Shown here piece after piece: positions 52,884 through 53,190 of a DNA stretch of 64,000 bases (the first letter of the stretch is position 1; every line of letters begins with the position of its first letter). The stretch lies in the NCBI GenBank assembly GCA_022821725.1, contig JAJEDB010000118.1:1-64000 (forward strand). The letters run 5' to 3'. This DNA is from Candidatus Poribacteria bacterium. Lineage in GTDB: Bacteria > Poribacteria > WGA-4E > WGA-3G. Under the pieces are notes generated by a model, which was not told where the DNA came from, did no database searches, and saw only the letters and a program-made list of their open reading frames with translations. A program made the translations under genes and the position numbers.

Positions 52884-53190
52884 GTTTTAATTATTCCTTG
52901 CGGTTAAACAACGTGGGTTTGAACTTGACATGCCTTTCTTATATCCGTTCTCCATTTCATTACGAACTACACACTTTGTTCCACAGACCTGAGATTTTTT
53001 AATTACTCCTTGCGATTAAACACAGACCTGAGATTTTTTAATTATTCCTTGCGGTTAAACAACGTGGGTTTGAACTTGACATGCCTTTCTTATATCCGTT
53101 CTCCAAATGTAAAGCAAAGACAAATTATGCCATTTAAGGCATAATTTCATTACGAACTACGCACTTTGTTCCACAGACCTGAGATTTTCC
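52884..53190 (-). repeat. tandem leader-type repeats upstream of the pseudo-ATPase gene; distal copy with 39-bp palindromic insert
   Basis: Two copies of AGTTCGTAATGAAATGGAGAACGGATATAAGAAAGGCATGTCAAGTTCAAACCCACGTTGTTTAACCGCAAGGAATAATTAAAA; palindrome at 53122-53147. Confidence 0.85.

Follow-up and report, generated by a model that had tools for sequence, protein, structure and literature searches.

By which route does one and the same 39-nt sequence come to stand in front of a P-type cation ATPase family gene and a PhyH family gene, each time in one of two leader copies? Within the window, the whole stretch of 64,000 nucleotides that was analysed, the 39-mer AATGTAAAGCAAAGACAAATTATGCCATTTAAGGCATAA occurs without mismatch at two sites (Table 1), for which the chance expectation is 0, as shuffled windows yield none. 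The sequence-only reading had seen here a 39-bp insert with occupied and empty leader sites, and in fact identical 39-mers are present at both loci alongside insert-free leaders, the equivalent CTCCA site upstream of phyH holding the same insert as claimed. With the genes on the minus strand, the site CTCCA^TTTCATTACG reads CGTAATGAAA^TGGAG in gene direction, and the empty sites read CTCCATTTCATTACG at 52950-52964 and, with 1 mismatch, CTCCATTACATTACG at 63739-63753. A target duplication is absent (empty GAAATGGAG versus occupied GAAA[39 nt]TGGAG), and the junction is ambiguous by one base, since A is the last letter of CTCCA as well as of the insert. In gene direction the insert consists of a hairpin, AAATTATGCC-TTAAAT-GGCATAATTT, and a subsequent tail, GTCTTTGCTTTACATT. 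The 10-bp palindrome is as perfect as had been stated but not wholly contained in the insert; the leader supplies bases to the final three pairs (TTT, 53145-53147, in one of the 10-bp arms), and the palindrome thus spans the insert/leader junction.

Table 1. Coordinates of leaders, inserts, repeats and associated genes in the window.
Feature	Position	Strand	Remarks
P-type cation ATPase family gene, 959 aa	50004..52883	-	behind tandem leaders
PhyH family gene, 271 aa	62896..63711	-	length counted from the ATG at the end of the proximal leader
39-nt insert (module M)	53106..53144	-	in loop of gene-distal ATPase leader
39-nt insert, identical copy	63888..63926	-	in loop of gene-distal phyH leader
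Palindrome AAATTATGCC/GGCATAATTT	53122..53147	.	final 3 bp belong to the leader
Type A leader, occupied (distal, ATPase)	53036..53172	-	covariance model, 81.6 bits, E 7.7e-19
Type A leader, empty (proximal, ATPase)	52885..52982	-	ends at ATG 52883; covariance model, 100.8 bits, E 6.7e-24
Type B leader, occupied (distal, phyH)	63853..63955	-	covariance model, 59 bits, E 6e-11
Type B leader, empty (proximal, phyH)	63709..63772	-	reaches start codon; covariance model, 77 bits, E 4e-15
Further type A leader, empty	44180..44278	+	ends at ATG; covariance model
Further type A leader	44955..45055	-	loop variant GGAACGAAGTGGA; covariance model
Further type A leader	47888..47990	+	loop GTAACGAAGTGGA; covariance model
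Further type B leader	27199..27264	+	before 582-aa ORF; covariance model
Second hairpin repeat (GTAG + GTGCGGTT...AACCGCAC)	62644..62699	-	empty site GCCCAAG^TGCGACG
Second hairpin repeat, second copy	62749..62804	-	empty site GCCCAAA^TGCGACG

The leaders with insert sites are a dispersed family of 5'-leaders, present before many genes of these sponge-associated Poribacteria, that fold into a hairpin and often end directly at the start codon, the insert site being the apical loop (GTAATGAAA^TGGA; loop letters also given as GAAATGGA). The flanking letters vary from copy to copy and nevertheless pair (CTGCGC/GCGCAG, CACCGC/GCGGTG, CATCGT/ACGATG, GCCC/GGGC, GTTC/GAAC). In the type A stem 98.3% of cells are paired with a covariation score of 0.406 versus 0.157 upon shuffling (n=30 leaders); equally, the type B stem is 100% paired with a score of 0.773 versus 0.186 (n=18 leaders) and two-sided changes at 5/6 pairs, and slid pairing partners fail in the same test. 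Type A usually has 68-69 nt from loop to ATG and ends in CCGCAAGG(A/T)AAAATTAAAA-ATG, type B 28-30 nt with the end CCAGGAGGCCATAGTTAAAAA-ATG. An ORF starts within three bases of the leader end in 28/51 type A and 4/6 type B leaders; for the PhyH gene, a longer upstream start would overlap the leader. In the ATPase, the DKTGT phosphorylation motif is missing by eye (NESGLSTT), which matches the initial suspicion about this gene.

The family is apparently undescribed, with several hundred copies per genome and a fast turnover. Covariance models find nine type A and three type B leaders in the window (E below 1e-4) and 42 type A and 3 type B leaders in 400 kb of the same genome (E up to 0.001), a density of about 57 per 464 kb or, by extrapolation, ~600 per genome; these counts rest on the 464-kb sample and on searches, the genomes being metagenome-assembled (MAGs). 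The empty 15-mer occurs in the genome 53 times exactly and 45 times with one mismatch. Nearly all congeners possess at least 41 type A leaders and other genera almost none among the matches listed, all per-genome counts being lower bounds; one strong type A leader (E 1e-19) is seen, among the matches listed, in another family of the order (G071), a possible transfer. Although structured 5'-leaders and riboswitches of Rfam share the covarying hairpin directly upstream of start codons, assignment to a known RNA family was rejected, as no Rfam family reaches its gathering score in the window and the best match in 52850-53250 attains 18.8 bits against a gathering score of 79; in further difference, the genes behind the leaders are unrelated and the leaders come and go between sister species. 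A relevant report on Poribacteria repeats or riboswitches was not found in the open-access literature. Other loop types exist in the same family, namely GCCTGC-AACAACGGC-GCAGGC and several unrelated long loops (L381:4098-4196, L384:5553-5651, L393:313-445, window 26419-26536), and some leaders carry insertions of another small repeat (GTTTTTGCTTGGGTGTTTCTTCA / CACCCAAGCAAAAACACC), beside the loop or further downstream (L003, L014, L046, L143, L144; window 62500-62600).

The insert is present in 36/39 congeners, with 17 near-exact copies in this genome (up to 3 mismatches) and 35 with a search pattern blind to the hairpin. Its exact core is found in 76 stretches of genome_contigs, all MAGs of Candidatus Poribacteria, and a viral origin was rejected as viral_contigs held no match to the core. 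Equally rejected was the insert as the end of a single larger element, since nearly 2 Mb of DNA showed hairpin variants only. In the leader-lodged set, 117/121 hits are true copies, and inspection places every one of them in a leader loop; the insert is enclosed by at least three closing pairs in 105 of these 117, and the rest reside in leaders with a broken or altered stem. Orientation and insertion point (AAA^TG) are constant throughout the leader-lodged copies. GAAA precedes the insert in 114/115 occupied loops and A stands at position 7 in all of them, whereas only 82/128 empty loops have A at the matching position, so that three leader bases may travel with the insert in a gene-conversion-like transfer or may be corrected afterwards. 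Occupation of the gene-distal copy, as described for the ATPase and phyH leaders, is correct for these two genes but does not hold in general: the majority of occupied leaders stand alone, directly adjoining the start codon, and at locus L001 both tandem copies are occupied.

As judged from sequence comparison, the insert is not a part of the leader but a dispersed mini-element composed of a hairpin and a conserved tail, because copies with other stems occur free, lodged in the second hairpin repeat of Table 1 (GCCCAAA^TGCGACG) and immediately ahead of one gene's ATG. The layout of this module is AAATT-covarying stem-AATTT-GTCTT(T/A)GCTTTACATT, in which the 16-nt tail GTCTT(T/A)GCTTTACATT is conserved while the stem letters vary. 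These covary between copies (TATGCC/GGCATA, TTTGCC/GGCAAA, TGTGCC/GGCACA, TCC/GGA), and the right half of the insert retrieves the further stems AAATTTTGCC/GGCAAAATTT, AAATTGTGCC/GGCACAATTT, AAATTCC/GGAATTT and AAATTGT/ACAATTT. In a phylum-wide search the tail was recovered in mostly non-leader contexts with 60 copies in G024, 35 in G035, 32 in G021, 25 in G028 and 14 in G005, with 2 copies outside the genus (G041) and with none in this genome. A simple hairpin is seen in 74/115 fetched module copies, many others having a longer hairpin or no left arm. The stem arms are paired in 96.3% of cells versus 76.8% upon shuffling, the shuffle being the informative comparison for copies preselected to pair at 3 of 4 positions. 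The left flank is constrained (CC, 0.94 and 0.73 bits) and the right flank nearly free. Hairpin loops were rejected as the general target, as a minority of free copies is so placed (arms of 6 bp or more enclose only 5/60, shuffled mean 1.4).

Occupied forms of the second hairpin repeat are found in congeners (L394-L398), and its two copies in the window are GTAG hairpins of the kind that flanks RAYT genes in the genus. The closed congeneric genomes G021 and G028 show at least 1 and at least 8 type A leaders, respectively, among the matches listed and many free module copies; leader and module thus spread independently, because these genomes are leader-poor yet rich in free module copies. At trpG, this genome (G000) carries the palindromic insert and G016 a quasi-palindromic one, TTAGGTTCTCC; both share the rare ACACTT, as expected if a quasi-palindrome had been corrected in place. 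Tandem repetition of the module in 40-bp units, or of its tail in 21-bp units, is seen in L477:129-249 (minus-strand offsets, G035), L476 and L491. Further inserts, for example GGGGAAGTCCATACGGACTTCATACCGTTGATT, appear to lie within the hairpin loop of the module itself (L516, L498, L521, L460), and hairpins may be nested several deep.

Among described systems, the REP sequences with their RAYT (TnpA_REP) transposases come to mind (Nunvar 2010, PMC2817692). As with REP sequences, the module is a palindrome that is dispersed in many copies per genome; both are short extragenic hairpins with covarying stems and without a transposase of their own, and RAYT genes flanked by GTAG hairpins occur in the genus (L355, L359, L363, L368, L445). 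On the other hand, the module lacks the GT(A/G)G head, its flanks reading CC/GG-AAATT and AATTTGTC, possesses a conserved 3' tail and is not consistently placed beside RAYT. REP palindromes are themselves targets of IS1397, ISKpn1, IS621 and other insertion sequences (PMC1525189). Like the module, these enter a dispersed palindromic repeat at a precise site, so that occupied and empty sites coexist, but they are full elements with a transposase, while the module has about 39 nt and enters leader hairpins. PATE and other non-autonomous IS200-IS605 derivatives have a palindrome near an end, a left-flank preference, a free right flank and no target duplication. They are named in a passage of PMC7290912. 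The hairpin near an end, the lack of target duplication and the left-flank preference are common to PATE and the module; on the side of difference, no ends in common with a resident IS200-like element emerged for the module. The module is thus REP- and MITE-like, yet a member of neither class, because the REP head and the target-site duplication of classical MITEs are absent.

IS200/IS605-type single-strand transposition proceeds without target duplication, with a preference for the left flank and a free right flank. The module resembles this type in all three respects. Y1 transposase genes are present in 38/39 genomes. Among ~17 MADTYTQ-type IS200-like genes one has module copies nearby. One IS200-like gene, in L444, has four such copies, unlike other genes of this kind, most of which have none within about 1 kb. 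The RAYT of L445 (1513-1986), which passes the NCBIfam REP_Tyr_transpos cut-off, lies between two module copies that are housed in GTAG hairpins and point the same way; it is the only one so flanked among the RAYT genes checked. REPs of the GGTAGGTGCGGTTTCC type flank RAYT genes at L445:1300-2700 (G021), L355, L359, L363 and L368, two of those at L445 carrying the module in their loop. The cognate recombinase or transposase whose search had been proposed is not encoded in the element, and no transposase consistently adjoins its copies; Y1 genes as immediate neighbours of the module were rejected as a general rule. The assignment of the mover is a putative one, because other RAYT and IS200-like genes have no adjoining module copies. 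We consider it probable, at roughly 0.7, that the 39-mer represents a family of non-autonomous, miniature mobile hairpin repeats of Poribacteria, moved by a putative Y1 transposase. A Y1 (HUH) transposase of the IS200/RAYT type, supplied in trans, would mobilise the module in single-stranded form; the module would enter after a short left-hand target without target duplication and, in leaders, would insert in fixed orientation at AAA^TG into the apical loop; lodged quasi-palindromic forms would subsequently be corrected in place to the perfect palindrome.

Other histories of the 39 nt can be weighed on orthologous leaders, which were compared in up to 30 congeners for the window loci and in seven near relatives for the other occupied loci of the genome. 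At the ATPase locus, a tandem with the distal copy occupied in this genome, a single empty leader is found in G030, G009, G026, G012 and G034; G023 and G016 have a leader end only and more distant species have no leader. The phyH gene has a single empty leader in G023 and G034, and locus L004, occupied in this genome, has a same-flank empty leader in G023. Parsimony over nine loci on a three-gene tree gives 14 gains versus 25 losses with an empty root better at 7/9 loci and an occupied root at two; insertion is more parsimonious than deletion, and loss of the insert probably also occurs. The empty sister-species leaders at both window loci bear out the proposed insertion. The opposite case that the sequence-only reading had named, a 39-mer constant in the ancestral leader and deleted in the proximal copies, does not apply at the two window loci, because the sister-species orthologs are empty and parsimony favours gain. 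An ancestral long-loop leader shortened by repeated precise deletion is altogether highly improbable: only at L016 and L017 does loss take fewer steps and explain the data as well as gain or better, whereas gains are fewer than losses at both window loci and at most of the remaining ones, the phyH tandem of G016 has its distal copy empty and empty loops far outnumber occupied ones. A spread of the 39 nt solely by gene conversion or template switching between leaders with shared loop letters, without any transposase, is rather unlikely, although hundreds of leader copies are at hand, replacement of entire leaders is seen between species whose genes are 95-97% identical, and occupied copies carry GAAA even where the empty orthologs have GTAATGTAATGG. 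The locus-specific stem letters remain unchanged in occupied/empty pairs, which would confine the exchanged tract to about 13 shared bases, and module copies exist in leader-free contexts.

The insert might also have been retained for what it does to the gene behind it. It is predicted to add a stable stem to the leader, with calculated folding energies changing from -14.4 to -28.6 and from -9.4 to -26.6 kcal/mol, and on the gene strand the hairpin and tail score as terminator-like at both window sites. These strengthened folding energies and terminator-like scores would suit a regulatory cassette kept by selection, in which the hairpin with its T-rich tail would act as an attenuator-like terminator or be bound by a protein; such a role is nevertheless unlikely, as the genes behind occupied leaders are unrelated to each other, occupancy switches between sister species, covarying stem letters leave no fixed operator and a terminator needs no invariant 16-nt tail. 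Binding of a repressor to the palindrome, put forward at the outset, is disfavoured as a sequence-specific operator, because the letters of the stem covary between copies while the 16-nt tail is conserved. A promoter created by the insert was rejected, as each site gives a single weak match, which lies on the wrong strand, and shuffled sequences do not give fewer.

What emerges is a very small mobile hairpin of ~39 nt whose entry into the apex of a second hairpin is exact to the base and has happened on several independent occasions. If the mover is indeed a Y1 transposase, these leaders would offer a natural test system for single-strand transposition into folded DNA. Speculatively, and decidedly unlikely on present evidence, the leaders could be portable translation-initiation cassettes with an exchangeable apical loop, whose hairpins swap by single-strand transposition throughout the genus and so alter, from one sister species to the next, how hundreds of genes are expressed. 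Should the leaders control translation, the exchange of hairpins would provide a route of regulatory rewiring.
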